From the NCBI GenBank assembly GCA_013285645.1, contig JABDHJ010000003.1, positions 62,001 to 126,000 of the forward strand: a stretch of DNA of 64,000 nucleotides, read 5' to 3'. The notes below the pieces were generated by a model that saw only the letters and a list, made by a program, of their open reading frames with translations, searched no databases and was not told the DNA's origin. Source of the DNA: Verrucomicrobiota bacterium. GTDB lineage: Bacteria > Verrucomicrobiota > Verrucomicrobiia > Methylacidiphilales > UBA1321. Below, one piece after another: positions 39,608 to 52,736 of the stretch. Position numbers and translations under genes: made by a program. Within the stretch, counting starts at the first letter, position 1; each line of letters opens with the position of its first letter.

Positions 39608-40243
39608 TTGAAAGCGATTGCCACATGGATTGACGAAGCCAGCGCACCCTTTTTTAAGTGGGTTTTCGCCAATTATCCGGAACTGCGTTTGTACGATGCG
39701 CGGATCGAACCGGTCCCTCCTTGGGAGAAGATCGACGCGCTCCTGCTGACGGGTGGTTCCGATATCTCGGAAAAATATCTGCGCCAACCGGTGCCTGATC
39801 CGACGCTGATCAAGAATCCCGATATGGAGCGCGATATCTGGGAGTTCGATGTGGCCCGGAAAGCGCTTGATCAACGCATGCCCATCCTAGCCATCTGTCG
39901 TGGACATCAGGTACTCAATGTCGTTATGGGCGGTACGCTGCATCTCGATATTCCGAATCATTACGAAGCCAATCTCAAATTTGGAAACCTCCAGGAATTG
40001 CGTTATGCCGATGGCGCGCCGATTCAAATTCCGCGCGTGAACAGTTCCCATCATCAGGCCGTTGATAAACTGGGAGAAGGCTTGGAGGTCGAAGCGTGGT
40101 GCAAGGCCGATGACATCATTGAGCAGATGCGGCTGACCGATTATCCGTTTGGTTTGAGCGTTCAATATCACCCGGAACGCGATCCGCTTTATCTCTCCAT
40201 CTTCAACGCTTTCGCGCATCAGGTGCTGCGAGGTGGCGTATGA
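39608..40243 (+). CDS. Class-I glutamine amidotransferase-like protein (peptidase C26 / PuuD-like)
   Basis: 211 residues from a TTG start. The triad is visible: nucleophile C97 in PILAICRGHQVLNVVMGG, and H188-x-E190 in SVQYHPERDP. Peptidase C26 enzymes hydrolyse gamma-glutamyl amides (for example gamma-glutamyl-GABA in PuuD). The stop overlaps the ATG of the next gene (ATGA, 40240-40243), so it is translated with two transglutaminase-like genes. The substrate cannot be told from sequence; the neighbourhood suggests gamma-glutamyl or amide chemistry. Confidence 0.88.
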   Translation: MKAIATWIDEASAPFFKWVFANYPELRLYDARIEPVPPWEKIDALLLTGGSDISEKYLRQPVPDPTLIKNPDMERDIWEFDVARKALDQRMPILAICRGHQVLNVVMGGTLHLDIPNHYEANLKFGNLQELRYADGAPIQIPRVNSSHHQAVDKLGEGLEVEAWCKADDIIEQMRLTDYPFGLSVQYHPERDPLYLSIFNAFAHQVLRGGV

Positions 40244-41136
40244 GCGCTCCTCTTGATCTCACCGTCCGAATCGGCTGCCACATCGTTTACCAGACGACGC
40301 GACCCACGCCGATTGTCTTCGTGCTTCGGCCACGCCTCGATAGCAGGCAGATCGTACAGCAGGAGAAACTCACCTTCACGCCCTATCTTCCCTCGGATGA
40401 GTTCACGGATGCGCACGGGAATACCTCCTACCGTTCCATGCTGCAACCAGGGCAGAATATTATTCATCACGACGCGCTGGTCGCGGTTTCATCCCAGCCA
40501 GATAATCACGATCTGCAAGCCGCCGTCATTCCCATCGACCAGTTGCCGCCGTGGGTGCTCCGCTACACGCTGCCGAGTCGCTACTGCGATTCCGATAAGC
40601 TCCTCAATTTTGCTTGGAACCAATTTAGTCAATTCCGGCATGGCCTCGATCGGATCTATGCGATTTGCAATTGGGTCCAACTCAATATCCAATATCGATT
40701 TGGCTCTGGTCGCTCAGATATCGCCGCCTCGGAAGTCATCAATCAAGGCTTCGGTGTGTGTCGCGATTTTGCCCATGTCGCGATTGCGCTCTGCCGGGCT
40801 TTCAATCTACCGGCACGTTATGTCACCGGCCATTTGCCCGACATCGGGCATACCGATCCCGGCACACCGATGGATTTCCACGCTTACTTCGAGGTCTTTC
40901 TGGGGCAAACATGGTGCACCTTTGACGCGCGCTTCAACGAACCGCGAATCGGTCGCGTGAAGGTGACGCAGGGGCTCGATGCGGTCGATGGCGCATTCTC
41001 CACGATCTACGGCGAGGCGGCGATGACATGGTTCGAGGTGTGGGCCTATCAGGTCAACCCCATGCAGGTTTCCATCAATGATCCGGTTGATCTTTCACGC
41101 CGTCTCGATGGGACGCAACAGGTCCGCTTCAGCTAA
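40240..41136 (+). CDS. Transglutaminase-like cysteine protein 1
   Basis: 298 residues. The Cys-His-Asp triad of the transglutaminase-like fold is intact: C174 (GFGVCRDFAHV), H214 (MDFHAYFEVF) and D229 (CTFDAR). It has no signal peptide. The N-terminal ~110 residues form the beta domain usual in this family (bacterial transglutaminase-like N-terminal type). Known members act as peptidases, amidases or cross-linkers; which applies here is unknown. It is translationally coupled to the amidotransferase and followed by a second transglutaminase-like gene after 8 nt. Confidence 0.9.
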   Translation: MSAPLDLTVRIGCHIVYQTTRPTPIVFVLRPRLDSRQIVQQEKLTFTPYLPSDEFTDAHGNTSYRSMLQPGQNIIHHDALVAVSSQPDNHDLQAAVIPIDQLPPWVLRYTLPSRYCDSDKLLNFAWNQFSQFRHGLDRIYAICNWVQLNIQYRFGSGRSDIAASEVINQGFGVCRDFAHVAIALCRAFNLPARYVTGHLPDIGHTDPGTPMDFHAYFEVFLGQTWCTFDARFNEPRIGRVKVTQGLDAVDGAFSTIYGEAAMTWFEVWAYQVNPMQVSINDPVDLSRRLDGTQQVRFS

Positions 41137-41144
41137 ATCTTTTC

Positions 41145-42035
41145 GTGAAACTCCGCATTCAGCATCGAACGACCTATCGCTATTCGGAGAAGGTGCAGTT
41201 CGGCCCGCACCGGATCATGGTCCGCCCGCGCGAGGGGCACGATATCCAGATCGAGCGATCTTCGCTTGAGGTGTCGCCCGCGCACCGCATCCAGTGGTCG
41301 CAGGATGTTTATGGAAACAACATCGCGTTGATCCAATTCACCGAACCGGCTTCCGAGTTGATGATCTATAGCGATCTGGTCCTGCAACATCTCGAGACCA
41401 ATCCGTTTGATTTCTTCCTGGAACCGGAGGCGGTGCAGTATCCGTTTTCGTACGATCCGGAGACGACGCTGGAACTTGCAGGTCTCCTTCATCTCGTTTA
41501 TCCCGACGACGCGGCAGCGGTGCGTGAATGGCTTCACCAGTTTTGGTATCCGGGACAAACCATCGATACGCTGGCATTGCTCCAGAAAATTAACGGCTCG
41601 ATCCAGTACGTATTTGCCTATCAAGTCAGGGAGGAGGCCGGAGTTCAATCTCCCGCCGAGACCTTGAAAAAGAAAAGTGGCTCATGCCGCGATTTTGCGA
41701 CGCTATTCCTTGAGGCTTGCCGATGCCTTGGACTGGCTTCCCGTTTTGTCAGTGGATACATGCTCAGCGGCGCATTGGGTGCTGACGCATCCACGCACGC
41801 ATGGGCTGAGGTCTATCTTCCCGGTGGAGGATGGAAAGGATTTGATCCTACTCTCGGACTTCTCCCTACATCGCAACATGTCCCGGTGGCCGTTTCTCGA
41901 CATCCTGAAAATGCCATGCCGGTTATCGGCTCCTACTTTGGTTCCGCTCAGGCCTTGGGGATTGAGGTTGATGTGCGCGTGGAGGAGATCGGCCCGATTT
42001 CGCAGCAGGCTCAGTCGATGGTCAAAATTGCTTAA
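41145..42035 (+). CDS. Transglutaminase-like cysteine protein 2
   Basis: 296 residues from a GTG start, N-terminus MKLRIQHRTTYRYSEKVQFGPHR, the classic start of the bacterial transglutaminase N-terminal domain. Triad: C181 (KSGSCRDFATLF), H218 (ASTHAWAEVYLPGGGW) and D234 (KGFDPTLG). No signal peptide, so cytosolic. It is clearly a paralogue of the preceding gene, but diverged. In other bacteria this family clusters with alpha-E and circularly permuted ATP-grasp proteins; neither is seen here. Confidence 0.92.
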   Translation: MKLRIQHRTTYRYSEKVQFGPHRIMVRPREGHDIQIERSSLEVSPAHRIQWSQDVYGNNIALIQFTEPASELMIYSDLVLQHLETNPFDFFLEPEAVQYPFSYDPETTLELAGLLHLVYPDDAAAVREWLHQFWYPGQTIDTLALLQKINGSIQYVFAYQVREEAGVQSPAETLKKKSGSCRDFATLFLEACRCLGLASRFVSGYMLSGALGADASTHAWAEVYLPGGGWKGFDPTLGLLPTSQHVPVAVSRHPENAMPVIGSYFGSAQALGIEVDVRVEEIGPISQQAQSMVKIA

Positions 42036-43265: not shown

Positions 43266-43926
43266 CCCTCGTTCCCAAGTTGCACTTGGGAACGCACTTG
43301 TCGGCGAAGCTTCGCTTCCCAATGATCGTTGCCAATGAGGAGCCGCTACAGAGTCCATGAAGCTCATGCCGTCTATTTCATTACCTCGACGGTTATAGCT
43401 TGGTTCCCGGTGTTCACGACTGCAACCCGCTGTGACATTCTAATTCAATCATTGGAGTATTGCCGCAGCCAGAAAGGACTCAAAATTTATGCTTGGGTTA
43501 TCTTGGACAATCACCTACATGCGATTGTCTCCGCGCCTGATCTCCCGCGCGTTATCGCGGATTTCAAGCGGCACACTGCCCAACGACTATTGGATCAATT
43601 GGAGGCCGAAAAAAGTGACTGGTTATTGAATCAATTCAGTTATTTTCGAGCCAAGCACAAAATGGAGAGCAAGCATCAAGTGTGGCAGGAGGGAGCGCAT
43701 CCACAGGAAATGTCGAATGATGAGATGATGTTGCAAAAGTTGGAATATATTCAAAACAACCCGGTAAAGCGAGGTTTGGTGGCTGCAGCGGAGCATTGGC
43801 GGTATTCCTCAGCTCACGAGTCTTGTGTGGGTTCGCAATCGGTTATGAAGAGCGATTCTTGGCAGTAGGCAGGGCAACGAAGTTGCGGGGACAAGTGCGT
43901 TCCCAAGTGCAACTTGGGAACGAGGG
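43266..43926. mobile_element. Intact RAYT element with ~37-bp perfect inverted ends
   Basis: The first and last ~37 bp (43266-43302 and 43890-43926) are exact reverse complements. Each end is itself a palindrome, TTCCCAAGT..ACTTGGGAA. The 661-bp unit contains one transposase gene. The perfection of the ends suggests recent activity. Related palindromes with no transposase lie at 7410-7561. Confidence 0.9.
43335..43868 (+). CDS. REP-associated tyrosine transposase (RAYT, Y1/HUH family)
   Basis: 177 residues from ATG 43335. The HUH metal motif is H60-L-H62 (LDNHLHAIV), and the catalytic Tyr is Y138 in LEYIQNNPVKRGLVAAAEHW, both in the order and spacing of RAYT/IS200-like Y1 transposases. The conserved downstream KRGLV..PE.W.YSS tail is present. 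The enzyme cuts single-stranded palindromic REP ends. It sits inside perfect inverted REP ends, so it should be competent. Confidence 0.95.
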   Translation: MRSRYRVHEAHAVYFITSTVIAWFPVFTTATRCDILIQSLEYCRSQKGLKIYAWVILDNHLHAIVSAPDLPRVIADFKRHTAQRLLDQLEAEKSDWLLNQFSYFRAKHKMESKHQVWQEGAHPQEMSNDEMMLQKLEYIQNNPVKRGLVAAAEHWRYSSAHESCVGSQSVMKSDSWQ

Positions 43927-44364: not shown

Positions 44365-45945
44365 TCAAATATAATACCGCCAATTGATATTGGGGAAGAT
44401 ATTGTCGCGCCACTCGCAGTTGCCGAGGAAATCGGTGTCGATGGTGTTGCTCTTGATCTGCTCGTAGAGGCGGGTGAAGCGCAGGATGTGGTCCTGGGTG
44501 CGCTTGACGGCGTAGGGAACCATGGTGCCGGTCTTCATGATGAAGGCCCAGTCGCTGGATTGGGCGAGGAGTAGTTCGCGCGCGGCTTGTTTCATGGCGC
44601 GGTCGGTGAGGCCGTAGCAATCGCGGAATTGACGCGCGAGTTCGATCATGCGGCCAGCGGCAGTGTGCAGGTGCGGATAAATCCACGCATTCGGCTCGTC
44701 GAGCCAGACTTTGTAATAGCCTTCCGCGCCCCATGAGGAAGCGCTGGGCGTGGCCAGTTGTTGGGTCGAGTAATTGGCTAGGTATTCGCCCGGCGTCGTC
44801 GTGCGGAAAACCTGCTGATCGTAGTGGGCCTTGCGGAAAACGTAGTTGAGGAACTCGGGCCCCTCGTACCACCAGTGGCCGTAGAGTTCGGCGTCGTAGG
44901 GTGCGAGGACGATGGGATCCATGCCGAGCACGCCGTGCAGATGCTCGATCTGCTTGCTGCGATTGAAGACGAAATTAGCCGCGTGGTCTGCGGAGCGATC
45001 GCGCGCCGCATTGGGACGATAAGGTTCCTTGTGACCGGACGGCCCGGTGATGCGGTGATACTTGAGGCCGGTGAATTTGCGCAGGCCATTGGACTGCACA
45101 TAGGGCGCGATGTAGTCTTGATCGAGATCGTAGCCGATGTCGCGGTAGAAATCGCGATACGCGGGATCGCCGGGATAGCCCTCGATGGAAGACCAGACCT
45201 GAACGCTTGATTCGATGTCGCGTCCAAAAGCGGCGGGGCCAGAGCGCGTGAAAAGCGGCGCGTAGACGCCGTAGCGAGGCCGCGGCTCGGCATGCATGAT
45301 CGCGTGGCTGTCGACGATGAACCAGCGGATATCGGCCTCCTGCAAAAACTTGTCGATACCCGGTGTGTAAGCGCATTCGGGCAGCCAGATGCCGCGGGGT
45401 GGGCGGCCAAAACATTCCTGATAATGATCCTTCGCGATCATGATCTGTGCGCGAATGGCCTCGGGATAATCGGCCATGAGCGGCAGATAACCATGGGTCG
45501 CGCCGCAGGTGATGATCTCGAGCTTGCCCTCGTCCTGGAACTTCCGGAAAGCGGTCAGCAGGTTGCGGTGATACTTATCAACGAAAACATGGCGGCAATT
45601 TTCGAGCCGATGGAGATAGAACCATGCGAGTTCGTGGAACTGGTGATCGCCCTTGGTGCGGTTAATTTCCTTGTGGGCCAATTCGATCGACTTGTCGACG
45701 GTCTTGACGTAGCGGTCCTGCAAAAGCGGATCGGCCAGCATTGAGGCGAGCGGCGGCGTGATCGACATCGTCAGGCGGAAATCGCAATTGTCATTCAGCA
45801 GGCCATCCATCATGTTGACCAGCGGAATATAGGTCTCCGTGATCGCCTCGTAGAACCAGTCCTCTTCGAGGAATTCCTCGTACTCGGGATGGCGGACGAA
45901 AGGCAGATGCGCGTGAAGGACAAGTGCGAGGTAACCTTGAGGCAT
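44365..45945 (-). CDS. Glycoside hydrolase family 57 protein (1,4-alpha-glucan branching type, DUF1957)
   Basis: 526 residues. The TIM-barrel start is GYLALVLHAHLPFVRHPEYEEFLEE. The probable nucleophile is E190 in RGIWLPECAYTPG and the acid/base is D351 in APYDAELYGHWWYEG. These positions match the GH57 branching-enzyme group that makes alpha-1,6 branches in glycogen, and the C-terminal helical domain of that group is present. Activity could alternatively be amylolytic. It is transcribed divergently from the PafA/Dop-like gene 125 nt away. Confidence 0.92.
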   Translation of the reverse strand: MPQGYLALVLHAHLPFVRHPEYEEFLEEDWFYEAITETYIPLVNMMDGLLNDNCDFRLTMSITPPLASMLADPLLQDRYVKTVDKSIELAHKEINRTKGDHQFHELAWFYLHRLENCRHVFVDKYHRNLLTAFRKFQDEGKLEIITCGATHGYLPLMADYPEAIRAQIMIAKDHYQECFGRPPRGIWLPECAYTPGIDKFLQEADIRWFIVDSHAIMHAEPRPRYGVYAPLFTRSGPAAFGRDIESSVQVWSSIEGYPGDPAYRDFYRDIGYDLDQDYIAPYVQSNGLRKFTGLKYHRITGPSGHKEPYRPNAARDRSADHAANFVFNRSKQIEHLHGVLGMDPIVLAPYDAELYGHWWYEGPEFLNYVFRKAHYDQQVFRTTTPGEYLANYSTQQLATPSASSWGAEGYYKVWLDEPNAWIYPHLHTAAGRMIELARQFRDCYGLTDRAMKQAARELLLAQSSDWAFIMKTGTMVPYAVKRTQDHILRFTRLYEQIKSNTIDTDFLGNCEWRDNIFPNINWRYYI

Positions 45946-46070
45946 GATGGGTGCTCAAAAGTTATACCGACTTGGCGGACTTGTCCCGCGTTAAGTCAGC
46001 AAAAAACGGTGGACGAAAAAATCGCGCAGTCGTGAGTTGGCAGCCGCCAAAAGACCGGTACGGTTAAAGC

Positions 46071-47462
46071 ATGAAGCGGCTCGCCGGCCTTGAGACCGAG
46101 TATGGCTGTATGGCGCCTGAATCGTTCGGGCTGCCAGCGGTACCGACGCGCGTTCGCGACTACATTTTCAAAAAGAAAAAGCTCGGTCTCATCGATTTGC
46201 ACGATCGCGATTACGATGAGCCGGCGGGCAATGGTGGATTTCTTTTCAACGGTGGTCGGCTCTACCTCGATATGGGCCATGTGGAATATTGTACGCCGGA
46301 GTGTCTCTCGCTGGCTGATGTTGTTGCTTACGACCAAGTGGGCGAGGTGTTGCTTCAGCAGGCGCTGCAGGAATTGCATCTGATCCCGGATGTTTCCTTC
46401 ATCAAGAACAACATCGATCACTACACGAGCGCAACTTTTGGCTGCCACGAGAATTACCTGCTCAATCGCGATGCCCCGCTGACAAAGAAGAATATCGATA
46501 CGCTGCTCACGTTTCTATCCGTGCGCATTTTGCTGGCGGGGGCGGGGCGTGTGGGGATGACGCAAGCCCCGCGGCGTTACGGTAAGATGGATGGTGGCGA
46601 CGGCGTGCCGTACCAGATTTCGCAACGGGCCGACTTCATCCAGACCGATATTTACGAGTGGGTGCAATTCAATCGCGCGCTGATCAATGCCCGCGATGAG
46701 CCGCTGGCGGATTATCGACGGTTTCGTCGACTGCACTTGTTGCTGGGCGATTCGAATCTGCTGCCTTTTGCCAATGCGTTGAAGGTCGGCTCGACCGCGT
46801 TGATGCTCGATTTGTTGGAGGCTGATGCGCTGCCCGATATCGCGCTGTATGATCCGGTCGGTGCGATGCGGAAGCTTTCACATCAACCGAACGGGCCGTG
46901 GAAAGTGGAGTTGGCCGATCGAAGCGAATGCCCGGCGCTCGATATCCTGGAGGAGTTTTTGGCGGCGGCGAATTCGGGAAAGATCGAACTCGATGCAGAT
47001 GGGAAATGGACGGTGGATGCGTGGCGGTTTGCGCTTGATCATCTCCGGCATGATCGCGGGGCGTTAATTGGGAAGCTCGACTGGATCACGAAGCAGTTCC
47101 TGCTCGAATCGTTCATCGAATCGGAGGGCATCACGTGGAAGGACACGTGGCTGGAGAGTCTCGATCTCGAATATCACTCAGTCGATCCGGCGAAATCGCT
47201 GCTGGCGGGATTGCCCGGGACGGCGTTGATCCAGCAGGGCCTGCCCGGCTTGGCCAAGCGAGATTTCTTTATTCAGCCTCCGCCAAATACGCGCGCCAAT
47301 GTCCGCAGCGAGGCGATGCGCACCATCCTGCACAAGAAGCTCTCTTACGTCATCGATTGGGATCTCATCTACATCGGCGAGGGGAAGCAGATCCATCTCG
47401 ATGATCCTTTTGTTTGCGATCTCAAGACGCTGAATAGTTTTCGCACGCACGACCATCGGTAA
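46071..47462 (+). CDS. PafA/Dop-family carboxylate-amine ligase (Pup ligase/deamidase fold), orphan
   Basis: 463 residues. The glutamine-synthetase-like fold signature is clear: ETEYG with Mg-binding E8 and E10, catalytic-type D67 in GGRLYLDMGHVEYCTPEC, FKNN-like FIKNN at 110-114, GCHENY at 124-129, then INARDEPLADYRRFRRLHLLLGDSNL and LKVGSTAL. These closely match PafA and Dop. The long Dop-loop insert is not obvious, so it resembles PafA more. The ATP-dependent enzyme would form or cut a Glu/Gln gamma-amide on a lysine. No Pup-like protein ending GGE or GGQ, no proteasome subunits and no Mpa/ARC ATPase occur in this window. It lies 119 nt upstream of the TldD gene. Confidence 0.85.
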   Translation: MKRLAGLETEYGCMAPESFGLPAVPTRVRDYIFKKKKLGLIDLHDRDYDEPAGNGGFLFNGGRLYLDMGHVEYCTPECLSLADVVAYDQVGEVLLQQALQELHLIPDVSFIKNNIDHYTSATFGCHENYLLNRDAPLTKKNIDTLLTFLSVRILLAGAGRVGMTQAPRRYGKMDGGDGVPYQISQRADFIQTDIYEWVQFNRALINARDEPLADYRRFRRLHLLLGDSNLLPFANALKVGSTALMLDLLEADALPDIALYDPVGAMRKLSHQPNGPWKVELADRSECPALDILEEFLAAANSGKIELDADGKWTVDAWRFALDHLRHDRGALIGKLDWITKQFLLESFIESEGITWKDTWLESLDLEYHSVDPAKSLLAGLPGTALIQQGLPGLAKRDFFIQPPPNTRANVRSEAMRTILHKKLSYVIDWDLIYIGEGKQIHLDDPFVCDLKTLNSFRTHDHR

Positions 47463-47471
47463 TCTCCGTCT

Positions 47472-47497
47472 CTGTCATCCTTCGACAAGGATGACAG
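47472..47497. terminator. Palindrome CTGTCATCCTT-CGAC-AAGGATGACAG
   Basis: A perfect 11-bp stem with a 4-nt loop lies 10 nt after the PafA/Dop stop codon. It looks like a minimal, collapsed REP-A unit (it shares GTCATCC and TTCGACAAG). It may terminate or stabilise that transcript; no T-tract follows. Confidence 0.5.
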
Positions 47498-47581
47498 ATT
47501 GCCTGAACATGGATTCAGTCCTACAGACTTGTAACTGCCTCGGTCTTTGACATTTGCCCTATCGCGTCGCACAGTTTCCCT

Positions 47582-49177
47582 GTGAATCGTCGTACGTTTC
47601 TTCGCTCGATGGGTGGATGCGCTTGCGCCACGCTGATCCCTTCCACGCTTTTTCTTGGCATGCGAAACGCCGCAGCCATTGAGATCGCGGAGAAGCTCGA
47701 TCTGCCCGGCAAGATGCGTCTGGCCGATATCGCCCTTGGAGCGGCCAAGACCATGGGCGCTTCCTACGCCGACTTCCGACTTTGCCGCTACCAAACCGAA
47801 TACATCCAGACCAAGGAACATCGGCTGGAGACCTCCGCCACCGGAATGAGCGTCGGTTTTGCCGTGCGCGTGCTTCTCGACGGCACTTGGGGTTACGCCA
47901 GCAGTCCGCTCGCCACCGACGACGAAGTCAAACGCGCCACGGCCAACGCCATCGCAGTGGCCAAGGCGAGCCAGCCACTTCAACTGCGCAAATTCGAGTT
48001 GGAAGACCTTACCTCCTATCAGGACCGCTGGGACATGCCGATGAAGGCCGATCCGTTTCTCGTGCCGGTGAATGAGAAGATCGACAAGCTGCTTTCGATC
48101 AACGAAGCCGCGCTCAAGGCCGGGGCCAATTATGCGAATGCCACCTTCACCTTTGTTCGTGAAGAGAAGTTTTTTGCCTCGAGCGTGGGCAGTCGAATCG
48201 AGCAGACCCGGGTTCGCAGCATGCCGGAAACCGAAGTGACGGTGATCGACAAGGTGACCGGAAAATTCGCTTCACGAGCGGGACTTGCCGCTCCCCGTGG
48301 TTCTGGCTATGACTACATTCAAGGTTACGATTTCCTAGGAGAAGCGGCGAAGGCAGCCGAGCAGGCCCGGGAAAAGTTGAAGGCGAAACCGATCGAACCG
48401 GATAAGTACGATCTCGTCCTCGATCCGACGCACCTGTGGTTGACCATTCACGAATCAGTCGGACATCCCACGGAACTCGATCGCGCGCTGGGTTGGGAAG
48501 CCAATTTCGCCGGGACGACCTTCTGCACACCGGACAAGCTGGGCAAACTCAAGTACGGTAGTGAGCTGATGAACATCGTGGCCGACCGCAGCCAGGAGGG
48601 TGGCCTTTCCACCGTTGGTTACGACGATGACGGCGTGAGTTGGATTGGAAATGATGGCTTCCCCATTATCCAGGACGGTATTTTTGTGAATTACCAGATG
48701 GCCATTGGCCAGGCGCAGCTTATCGGAAAAAAGACCTCTAACGGCTGCGCGTTCGCTGACAACTGGGATGCCTTCCCGATCCAGCGGATGCCGAATGTCT
48801 CGCTCCAACCCAATCCCAAGACCTGCTCGCTGGAGGATCTTATCTCCGACGTGAAGAGAGGCATCTACATCATGGGCAACGGCAGCTGGAGCATCGACCA
48901 GCAGCGGCACAATTTTCAATTTGGCGGCCAGCTTTTTTACGAGATCAAAAACGGAAAGCTCGGCGGCATGCTGCGAGACGTTGCCTATCAGGGCAGCACG
49001 GTCGAGTTTTGGAATTCGATGGATGGTATTGGCGACAAGAGTACTTATTTCCTCGGCGGCGCACCGAATTGCGGCAAGGGCCAGCCCGAGCAGACGGCGC
49101 CGGTATCGCATGGCGCGGTGCCGGGCCGGTTCCGTCAAATCACCGTGCTTAACACGGAGAGAAAGGATGTCACATGA
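47582..49177 (+). CDS. tldD: TldD family metalloprotease, with apparent Tat-type leader
   Basis: 531 residues from a GTG start. The zinc motif is HESVGH (H290, E291, H295), with the family third-ligand Cys at C497 in PNCGKGQP; both fit TldD. Unlike classical cytosolic TldD, this one begins with a twin-arginine-like leader (MNRRTFLRSMGGCA, a hydrophobic stretch, then AAA), ~33 residues longer than the usual start. TldD/TldE together degrade small unfolded peptides and mature modified peptides. The stop overlaps the TldE start (ATGA). Gene order (ligase-tldD-tldE) suggests a shared pathway. Confidence 0.93.
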   Translation: MNRRTFLRSMGGCACATLIPSTLFLGMRNAAAIEIAEKLDLPGKMRLADIALGAAKTMGASYADFRLCRYQTEYIQTKEHRLETSATGMSVGFAVRVLLDGTWGYASSPLATDDEVKRATANAIAVAKASQPLQLRKFELEDLTSYQDRWDMPMKADPFLVPVNEKIDKLLSINEAALKAGANYANATFTFVREEKFFASSVGSRIEQTRVRSMPETEVTVIDKVTGKFASRAGLAAPRGSGYDYIQGYDFLGEAAKAAEQAREKLKAKPIEPDKYDLVLDPTHLWLTIHESVGHPTELDRALGWEANFAGTTFCTPDKLGKLKYGSELMNIVADRSQEGGLSTVGYDDDGVSWIGNDGFPIIQDGIFVNYQMAIGQAQLIGKKTSNGCAFADNWDAFPIQRMPNVSLQPNPKTCSLEDLISDVKRGIYIMGNGSWSIDQQRHNFQFGGQLFYEIKNGKLGGMLRDVAYQGSTVEFWNSMDGIGDKSTYFLGGAPNCGKGQPEQTAPVSHGAVPGRFRQITVLNTERKDVT

Positions 49178-50860: not shown

Positions 50861-50974
50861 ATGGGAGACTATCCAGGACGCAAACAAGTTCGCAATCGCG
50901 CCAAGCGCGCCGTGAAAAACGATCGTATCATTGAAAAACGGGCAGCCGAAAAGAAAGCCGCCGCGAAGAAGTAG
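50861..50974 (+). CDS. Small basic protein (37 residues)
   Basis: ATG 50861 to TAG 50974. MGDYPGRKQVRNRAKRAVKN is followed by a Lys/Ala-rich tail (RIIEKRAAEKKAAAKK). Similar in type to the 45-residue basic protein at 28.7 kb; the ends do not match Pup (no GG-Glu/Gln). There is no strong ribosome-binding site, and overlapping frames on this strand are also open, so the call is uncertain. Confidence 0.45.
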   Translation: MGDYPGRKQVRNRAKRAVKNDRIIEKRAAEKKAAAKK

Positions 50975-51023
50975 GAGCCTCGGCATCAAACGGCACTCGG
51001 TGCCGTGGTTTCATCTTTTTCCC

Positions 51024-52736
51024 ATGCAAAAAGGTCTAACCATCCTGTTTCTGGCGTTGGCCGTTTTGTCATGCCCGGCGCAGGACGCGCCTCTGCCCTC
51101 GTGGAACAGCGCTGCCCAGACGGTGTGGTGGACCAAAAATCCGTCGCCTGATCAATGGCCTCAAGCCGTGACGGACCTGACGGCCCAGTTGGCGACCAGC
51201 TATCAACAAAATGGCGCTTCCGTCTTTTCCAATCCTGATTTCCAAGGCTGGCTGGAGCACCTTGAGTGGATTCGGTTGGGGCTCCAATGCCCCGAGATAC
51301 TGTCTGATGCCAATAATCTGGCTGCCTTTGTCGCTTTGGGCAAAGACGATGCGGTCTCGCATCTCTTCGTGGAGAAACTCAATCCACGAGATGTTAAGAA
51401 GGTGGCGCTGCAAAACCTGCTGAAGCTGGAAGAGGCCAACGCCGCCGATTTGCATGAGTACGCCGCTCTAGGTGTGGCTTTTTGCCTCGTCTTTGATCGG
51501 CCTTTTCCGCGCAACTGGCCGCATCCGCAAGTCCAGCAGAGCGCAGTTCCAATCGGCGATCTCGATGTCGTCCCGCGCTTCAATTTTTACGTGCAGTCAA
51601 ACCGCGACCACAAACTTGAACAAGACCCCAGCCAGTTGACTTTCGAAAAGCTCAAGTTCCTGGTCGATAGCGAGGTCTCATTGTCCGAACTCGAATACGC
51701 CCAGCACAATCGCATCTCGTACTCTCATTTCGAGGATGCCTTTTTCTCGATCACCTATAATGAGAGCCGGGCCACCTCGGGAAGTTTCGCTTTCATGTGG
51801 GACCAGCCCACCTATCTCCTCAAGGACATTGCAACGAATGGTGGCATCTGCGTCGACCAAGCCTACTACGCCACGATTCTCGGCAAGGGCCGTGGCATTC
51901 CCACCATCTACTTCCACGGGCAGGGGACTGGTGGTGGCCACGCCTGGTTCGGCTATCTGTCGAGTTCGGGAAAATGGGAGCTCGATTGCGGTCGCTACGA
52001 AAGTCAGAATTACCCCAAGGGCTATGCCTTGGATCCCCAGACTTGGGAGCCCATCGACGATACCATTCTGACCAACTTCTTTAAGAATGGTGACGCCAAT
52101 CCCAACTTTCACCCGGCGGAAAACGCCCTCGGTTGGGCGCAATTACAGGACAAAAAGGACCTATGTAAAAAGGCTCTCGATGATGCGCGCACCATCATGC
52201 CGGAACTGGCCGAGTCCTGGATAATGGAGGCCTCTTTCCTGGAGAACACCAACGCCAGCGACGACGACAAGAAGACCTTTTACCAGAGCTGGATTTCGCA
52301 ATTTCAATCGTTCGCCGATATGAAGGTGGAGGGCCAGCGCCGCCTCCTTGCGGTCCTCAAAAAAACCAATGATCCTGCGGCGGACAGTCTCCAGCAGGAC
52401 ATCGTCCTGGCCAATCGCAGCAGTGACATTGATGTCGGAATCTCGGGCTCATGGGACGCGATCAACGGAAAGATACAGGGTGGCGACTGGGACGGCGCCC
52501 GGTTGGACTATGAAAAATCGATTCGCGATTTCGGGGATCAGGGCGGCGGTACATTGTTTTACGACTTGGTATCTCCCTATATCGAGGCGTGCCTGAAAGA
52601 AGGCAAAATTGATCAGGCGGATCGCGGAATCAAGTTTACCGAGGAGAGGATGCAGATCGATGGCGGCAGTATCGTCAGCAGCGCATTCGACACGCTGAAG
52701 GGAAAAGTTGGGGATTTAAAGCGCTCCGAGCACTAA
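51024..52736 (+). CDS. Secreted transglutaminase-like protein
   Basis: 570 residues from ATG 51024 (MQKGLTILFLALAVLSC, a signal peptide, possibly with lipid attachment at C17). The central region contains a transglutaminase-like triad: C276 (GGICVDQAYYATILGKGRGIPT), H306 (GGGHAWFGYL) and D321 (ELDCGRY). The C-terminal part looks TPR-like and helical. It is a periplasmic or surface protease, amidase or cross-linker with unknown substrate. An upstream in-frame extension is rejected because it overlaps the small basic gene. It is the third transglutaminase-fold gene in 13 kb. Confidence 0.75.
   Translation: MQKGLTILFLALAVLSCPAQDAPLPSWNSAAQTVWWTKNPSPDQWPQAVTDLTAQLATSYQQNGASVFSNPDFQGWLEHLEWIRLGLQCPEILSDANNLAAFVALGKDDAVSHLFVEKLNPRDVKKVALQNLLKLEEANAADLHEYAALGVAFCLVFDRPFPRNWPHPQVQQSAVPIGDLDVVPRFNFYVQSNRDHKLEQDPSQLTFEKLKFLVDSEVSLSELEYAQHNRISYSHFEDAFFSITYNESRATSGSFAFMWDQPTYLLKDIATNGGICVDQAYYATILGKGRGIPTIYFHGQGTGGGHAWFGYLSSSGKWELDCGRYESQNYPKGYALDPQTWEPIDDTILTNFFKNGDANPNFHPAENALGWAQLQDKKDLCKKALDDARTIMPELAESWIMEASFLENTNASDDDKKTFYQSWISQFQSFADMKVEGQRRLLAVLKKTNDPAADSLQQDIVLANRSSDIDVGISGSWDAINGKIQGGDWDGARLDYEKSIRDFGDQGGGTLFYDLVSPYIEACLKEGKIDQADRGIKFTEERMQIDGGSIVSSAFDTLKGKVGDLKRSEH

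Follow-up and report, generated by a model that had tools for sequence, protein, structure and literature searches.

A gene for an enzyme of the PafA/Dop family that lies next to tldD, with none of the genes that normally accompany such enzymes, raises the question of what this enzyme acts on. The gene is found in a stretch of 64,000 nucleotides, here termed the window, from a Verrucomicrobiota bacterium (GenBank assembly GCA_013285645.1). An earlier note, made from the sequence alone, described it as an orphan and left two options, namely, that its partners are encoded elsewhere in the genome or that it attaches or removes something other than Pup; a whole-genome search for partners, a phylogenetic tree, and an inspection of the Dop-loop were proposed as checks. 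The analyses reported here make it very likely that the gene codes for PafA, the ligase in a proteasome system of the UBact (Pup) type whose genes are divided between two genomic locations.

An intact gene of the Pup ligase family

The pafA gene is an intact open reading frame with an ATG start, and its product matched the Pup_ligase profile PF03136 with an E value of 6e-106 and 355.5 bits (cut-off 25) over profile positions 1 to 439 of 441. The active-site features on which the family assignment had been based (E8/E10, D67, GCHENY, and NARDEPLAD) were all found where the earlier note had placed them and are conserved. In the numbering of the window protein, E8, E10, D67, H126, N206, R208, D209, E210, and P211 are invariant in 34 of 34 aligned relatives. 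D67 is the alignment partner of the catalytic Asp, which is D64 in C. glutamicum PafA and D94 in A. cellulolyticus Dop in the numbering of the consulted part of PMC7947786, from which the motif name GhExE was also taken. The catalytic core of PafA-type UBact ligases, consisting of GhExE, the catalytic Asp, and NxRDEP, is present in the window protein. Comparison with four same-genus orthologs gave dN/dS ratios of 0.05 to 0.083, which means that the gene is under selection. The corresponding values for the dop gene of the same genome, compared with three orthologs, were 0.05 to 0.06, and purifying selection on pafA is equally strong.

Table 1. Position of pafA and its motifs in the window, and of the partner genes on contig C19 (given in L003 coordinates; the C19 locus genes are on the minus strand)
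Feature	Coordinates	Strand	Evidence
pafA, UBact (Pup-type) ligase, 463 aa (very likely)	46071..47462	+	PF03136, tree, orthology, dN/dS
G-L-E-T-E-Y-G, GhExE ATP-binding motif, residues 6-12 (E8, E10)	46086..46106	+	Sequence; E8/E10 in 34/34
Residues 39-56 (GLIDLHDRDYDEPAGNGG), short, at Dop-loop place	46185..46238	+	Alignment with actinobacterial PafA and Dop
D67 codon, catalytic Asp	46269..46271	+	Alignment; invariant in 34/34
GCHENY block, residues 124-129	46440..46457	+	Invariant in 34/34
Alpha-loop region, residues 187-206 (ADFIQTDIYEWVQFNRALIN)	46629..46688	+	Neither actinobacterial PafA-like nor Dop-like
NARDEPLAD block, residues 206-214	46686..46712	+	N206, R208, D209, E210, P211, L212, D214 invariant in 34/34
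C-terminal D-P-F, residues 445-447	47403..47411	+	Common to actinobacterial PafA, absent from Dop (15 alignment rows)
mpa	L003 16504-18276	-	TIGR03689, 455.7 bits
dop (second PF03136 gene)	L003 14694-16235	-	Dop-like, Dop-loop present
UBact, 58 residues, ends RYRQRTGQ	L003 14072-14245	-	PF20513, E 2e-22
prcB	L003 13230-14072	-	TIGR03690, 157.2 bits
OsmC-like gene (PF02566), between prcB and prcA	L003 12788-13204	-	
prcA-like gene	L003 12019-12780	-	TIGR03691, 61.3 bits, under cut-off 139

The partner genes on a second contig

When the whole window was searched by tblastn with Dop, Mpa, UBact, PrcA, and PrcB queries, the sole match was pafA itself, found via the Dop query, and it is therefore correct that no proteasome or ATPase partner is in view. 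It had also been stated that no small protein ending in GG-E or GG-Q is encoded nearby; no such reading frame of 25 to 150 aa exists in the whole window, a test that is unable to reveal the modifier of this system because UBact here ends in R-T-G-Q.

The assembly is a 3.18-Mb draft in 100 contigs that is 66% complete. Its PF03136 genes number exactly two: that of the window lies on contig C3 and the other on contig C19, where mpa, dop, the single UBact copy of the genome, prcB, and prcA form a UBact/proteasome locus (Table 1). The score of the C19 Dop, 467.3 bits, is under its own TIGR03688 cut-off of 492.3 bits, and the Dop model beats the PafA model by 86 bits for this protein. By eye, PrcB carries Thr, Asp, and Lys at what we take to be proteasome positions 1, 17, and 33. 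Downstream of prcA there are SGNH-hydrolase-like and uracil-DNA-glycosylase-like genes and, on the opposite strand, secA (labels by eye), and the usual pafA slot after prcA is empty of pafA. The orphan look of pafA, with the other parts on another contig, is due to its departure from the usual operon. The designation as an orphan thus holds for the window and fails for the genome, and the first of the two options, partners elsewhere, proved correct. The second, action on something other than Pup or UBact, is unsupported, since the genome was found to hold a UBact and proteasome locus and the gene to fall on the PafA side of the tree (see below), the combination that the note itself had held against it.

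PafA or Dop

The window protein remained under both NCBIfam equivalog cut-offs, with 259.7 bits for Dop (TIGR03688, cut-off 492.3) and 258.3 bits for PafA (TIGR03686, cut-off 551.3). In phmmer comparisons with solved chains, it scored 206.6 bits with Dop and 176.5 with PafA, which counts against its reading as PafA; Nonomuraea PafA, an actinobacterial enzyme, likewise scores nearer UBact Dop than UBact PafA. Classing the gene by best score was rejected because the models tie, the Dop chains score higher, and the Nonomuraea PafA is likewise misleading. Since scores left the choice between PafA and Dop undecided, a tree was needed.

For the maximum-likelihood tree, the 80 rows were thinned by locus to 53, with 450 columns. 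With support of 97/94.5, it separated 25 UBact-PafA sequences, including the window protein, and two actinobacterial PafAs from 24 UBact-Dop sequences and two actinobacterial Dops, these four being the only actinobacterial sequences in the tree. The nearest row to the window gene is a same-genus gene that is 89% identical. An AU test rejected the grouping of the window's UBact-PafA clade with actinobacterial Dop (p 0.006); separate PafA/Dop splits in UBact bacteria and in actinobacteria were not rejected (p 0.083). In an alignment of 39 UBact-PafA, 37 UBact-Dop, and 4 actinobacterial sequences (15 rows printed), the Dop-loop is absent from the window protein and complete in the C19 protein. 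At the discriminating positions listed in the consulted part of PMC7947786, the window protein resembles PafA at Nos. 4, 7, 9, 11, and 46 and Dop at Nos. 15 and 25, and it resembles neither across most of the alpha-loop; over the alpha-loop positions Nos. 25 to 33 of Table 1 in that part, 0 of 9 match PafA.

The reverse assignment, in which the window gene has the Dop function of a deamidase/depupylase and the ligase is encoded on C19, appears very improbable. The near-equal NCBIfam scores, the slightly better raw scores with Dop than with PafA chains, and the two Dop-like positions agree with it, but the protein with the full Dop-loop is that of C19, which is encoded between mpa and UBact, the usual place of dop, and is preferred by the Dop model by the margin given above, and both the tree and the first AU test place the window gene with PafA. 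The window gene is accordingly treated as PafA in what follows.

Features of UBact-type ligases

The UBact-type PafAs have two characteristic segments, an alpha-loop of the Tyr-x-Trp-x-Gln-Phe type and a D-x-H-x-R...E-P-x-G-N-G-G insert. The central residue of the alpha-loop is Trp in all 39 aligned PafA sequences of the UBact type; in two solved structures it is Ala (PafA) and Glu (Dop). In the insert, which occupies the Dop-loop site, D42, H44, R46, E50, P51, G53, N54, G55, and G56 are invariant in 34 of 34 relatives. L129 was excluded from the structure alignment because of a stop within its stretch. The alpha-loop of actinobacterial PafA meets its targets. According to the consulted part of PMC7947786, replacement of the alpha-loop together with removal of the Dop-loop is enough to make Dop a weak ligase.

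An AlphaFold2 model of the window protein had a mean pLDDT of 79.8 and a pTM of 0.85. Foldseek and VIA-align placed PafA and Dop structures at the top in a tie (VIA Z scores of 31.6 for Dop and 31.0 for PafA), followed by YbdK-type and other glutamate-cysteine ligases and by glutamine synthetases. Structure was rejected as an arbiter between PafA and Dop, given that the fold searches tie. The model contains a PafA-like helix at residues 193 to 207, which was set aside as evidence because the pLDDT is below 50 at residues 192 to 195 and 200 to 213.

Taken together, these features could mean that UBact-type ligases are a separate class with another target rule, whose ligase/hydrolase pair arose apart from that of actinobacteria; this is considered unlikely. 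In that case, tagging would be under separate control, and the parting of ligase and modifier genes in at least two lineages would be a reflection of this. The alpha-loop of the UBact ligases is a concrete target for work on substrate choice by tag ligases.

Gene order in related genomes

UBact and PF03136 are jointly present in 25 of 60 related genomes and jointly absent in the other 35. Two PF03136 matches were detected in 20 of these 25 genomes, and more in 4, where genes are cut by contig ends. The remaining genome, G004, is 83% complete; dop and UBact were detected there and pafA was not, which counts against the best reading.

The order mpa-dop-UBact-prcB-prcA-pafA is that of related genera, Latescibacterota, and Gemmatimonadota. 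The intact order, in part without mpa, was found in G009 (whose contig begins within dop), G010, G019, and G032, where prcA is followed each time by the window gene's ortholog (58 to 72% identity); in G011, the genes of the intact operon are spread over two short contigs. Within the genus of the window, which belongs to Candidatus Methylacidiphilales, pafA and dop/UBact are on different contigs in G002, G003, G005, G006, and G007. Other genes fill the slot after prcA in G000, G002, G003, G004, and G005, and contig ends are thus not the cause of the split there. G008 differs in that dop is the relocated gene, lying about 594 kb from UBact-prcB-prcA-pafA on the same contig.

A contig scan with 13 PafA sequences returned at least 559 confirmed relatives, of which the best 80 were kept; these include Candidatus Methylacidiphilales MAGs, Methylacidimicrobium, Chthoniobacter flavus, Pedosphaera, Latescibacterota, and Gemmatimonadota. 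Among the best 80 of at least 559 loci, the partners beside pafA were prcA in 49, prcB in 43, UBact in 41, dop in 34, and mpa in 30, and for 31 of these 80 no partner was found in the DNA examined (for 18 of the 31, this DNA extended at least 3 kb upstream and 1 kb downstream). Twelve whole genomes behind partnerless loci each possess exactly two PF03136 genes and UBact. Two of the split genomes (G071 and G219) have dop and mpa on one contig, pafA on a second, and UBact on a third, and in G310, dop with mpa are on one contig and UBact-prcB-prcA on another, with pafA about 4 kb beyond. A phylum match in G393, 27 codons at a contig end in a genome without UBact, was set aside. As the tree parts the split lineages from a Methylacidiphilales clade with intact-operon genera, splitting occurred at least twice. 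The pafA gene is out of the operon in the window's own genus, and the locus has also been split in Chthoniobacterales-like lineages.

The same data bear on the idea that the gene is a copy in decay or a contaminant and that the working pafA was lost in an assembly gap, which is hardly credible: the genome is an incomplete draft in many contigs, but the reading frame is intact and under purifying selection, the nearest relative belongs to the same genus, pafA is away from prcA in same-genus genomes too, and contig C3 is 155 kb long.

The C terminus of UBact is Gln in seven sequences of the window's genus (its own genome included and G001 left out) and in G011, and Glu in G008, G009, and G010; both kinds keep Dop. 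Since G009, G010, and G011 are of one genus, the C terminus switches among close relatives. Among the best 80 of at least 559 loci, 26 UBacts end in Gln and 15 in Glu. The C termini were read from L003, L026, L035-L037, L039, L040, L042, L044, L046, L049, L051, L053, and L065-L144.

An OsmC-family gene (PF02566) is located between prcB and prcA in G000, G002, G003, G004, G005, and G007, and not in G006. The same slot contains a SUKH/SMI1-like gene, under the cut-off, in G008, and the gap may be a cargo site. Loci of verrucomicrobial-type pafA or UBact were also seen under a Betaproteobacteria label (L074) and under Akkermansia muciniphila labels (L100 and L136), and these organism labels are probably wrong. 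Another record, L145, is an 11.85-Mb Nonomuraea gerenzanensis sequence that stands in PLSDB as a plasmid and is surely a chromosome; it holds actinobacterial pafA and dop.

The surroundings of pafA

As the earlier note had reported, the gene is next to tldD (PF19289, PF01523, and PF19290), which is followed by a TldE-like gene. That the enzyme adds or takes off something different from UBact, for instance as a partner of this TldD/TldE peptidase, is even less probable than an exchange of the PafA and Dop functions. The location of tldD, 119 bp downstream of pafA on the same strand, and an alpha-loop unlike that of known Pup ligases are compatible with such a partnership, but TldD/TldE queries matched none of the best 80 of at least 559 pafA loci, TldD was never on a contig with a PafA-type gene in the other seven same-genus genomes (no PafA was found in G004), and G008 to G011 possess pafA with no TldD match. 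The joint presence or absence of PF03136 and UBact across the 60 relatives likewise ties the enzyme to UBact. Of the 12 genomes of the family, 8 have TldD. As a functional partner, TldD/TldE was rejected because its linkage to pafA is not conserved, and tldD is an ordinary neighbor.

Returning to the UBact ligase, about 45 bp directly upstream of pafA (46026-46070) can be aligned across six genomes of the genus, unlike DNA farther away, and the flanking genes of pafA differ among these six genomes. This conserved stretch suggests that pafA may carry its own control region. A promoter scan of positions 45800 to 47700 found no sigma-70-like site, with 1.2 expected from shuffles, and comparison of the pafA upstream region with those of mpa, dop, and UBact showed no clear motif in common.

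Several further genes were observed in the vicinity. A Y1_Tnp transposase gene (IS200-like/RAYT-type) lies at 43329-43868, about 2 kb from pafA, and a similar one (27% identity) lies between dop and mpa in L059; this transposase is a possible agent of rearrangements. A class-I glutamine amidotransferase gene (Peptidase_C26) and two transglutaminase-like genes stand in a row at 39608-42035, and a 601-residue reading frame with no Pfam match is located downstream of tldE (50931-52736). Five same-genus genomes (L041, L043, L045, L047, and L048) have a LysM gene no more than about 2 kb from their relocated pafA, which the window does not; that of L041 is of the NlpC/P60 type by Pfam, and the other four were labeled by eye.

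Function and comparison with known systems

By analogy with the studied actinobacterial enzymes, the parts would work together despite their separated genes. The C19 Dop would deamidate the C-terminal Gln of UBact to Glu, whereupon PafA, the window gene product, would phosphorylate the side-chain carboxylate of this Glu with ATP and join UBact to target lysines. Mpa would then unfold proteins bearing the tag and feed them to the PrcBA proteasome, and the tag may also be taken off by Dop.

The UBact modifier was reportedly described by Lehmann et al. in 2017. Proteasome genes of Methylacidiphilum (PMC2474590) and Pup-type systems in Verrucomicrobia (PMC2588565) were reported in 2008, in the consulted parts of these papers. 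PafA homologs and Pup are described as neighbors in all lineages in the part of PMC2588565 consulted, and the gene order as rigidly conserved in that of PMC3511204. Measured against these passages, the loci reported here are exceptions and mildly new, in that the gene order breaks repeatedly in Verrucomicrobiota, and partner searches confined to the neighborhood consequently miss partners. Among the literature titles and abstracts on UBact PafA/Dop, on verrucomicrobial and Nitrospirae systems, and on the alpha-loop, a set outside which the founding UBact paper falls, none concerned UBact ligase motifs or split loci.

The case of the apparent orphan is thereby closed, since the enzyme is part of a UBact system that is complete, and on the best reading it is a UBact ligase in a split locus, an ordinary enzyme of known kind. 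With the UBact system as described, the system of this genome shares the UBact modifier, PafA- and Dop-type enzymes, an Mpa-type ATPase, PrcB, and PrcA; the differences are the position of pafA outside the operon in the window's genus and the osmC-like gene between prcB and prcA in most genomes of that genus. With actinobacterial Dop (4b0r and 5lrt), the window protein has the fold and the catalytic core in common, whereas it has no Dop-loop, is PafA-like around the catalytic Asp, and falls off the Dop side of the tree. It resembles actinobacterial PafA (4b0t and 4bjr) in fold, GhExE motif, catalytic Asp, lack of a Dop-loop, C-terminal DPF, and side of the tree, but differs in an identity of about 25 to 26% in structural alignments, a score under the TIGR03686 cut-off, and an alpha-loop and insert motif of its own.
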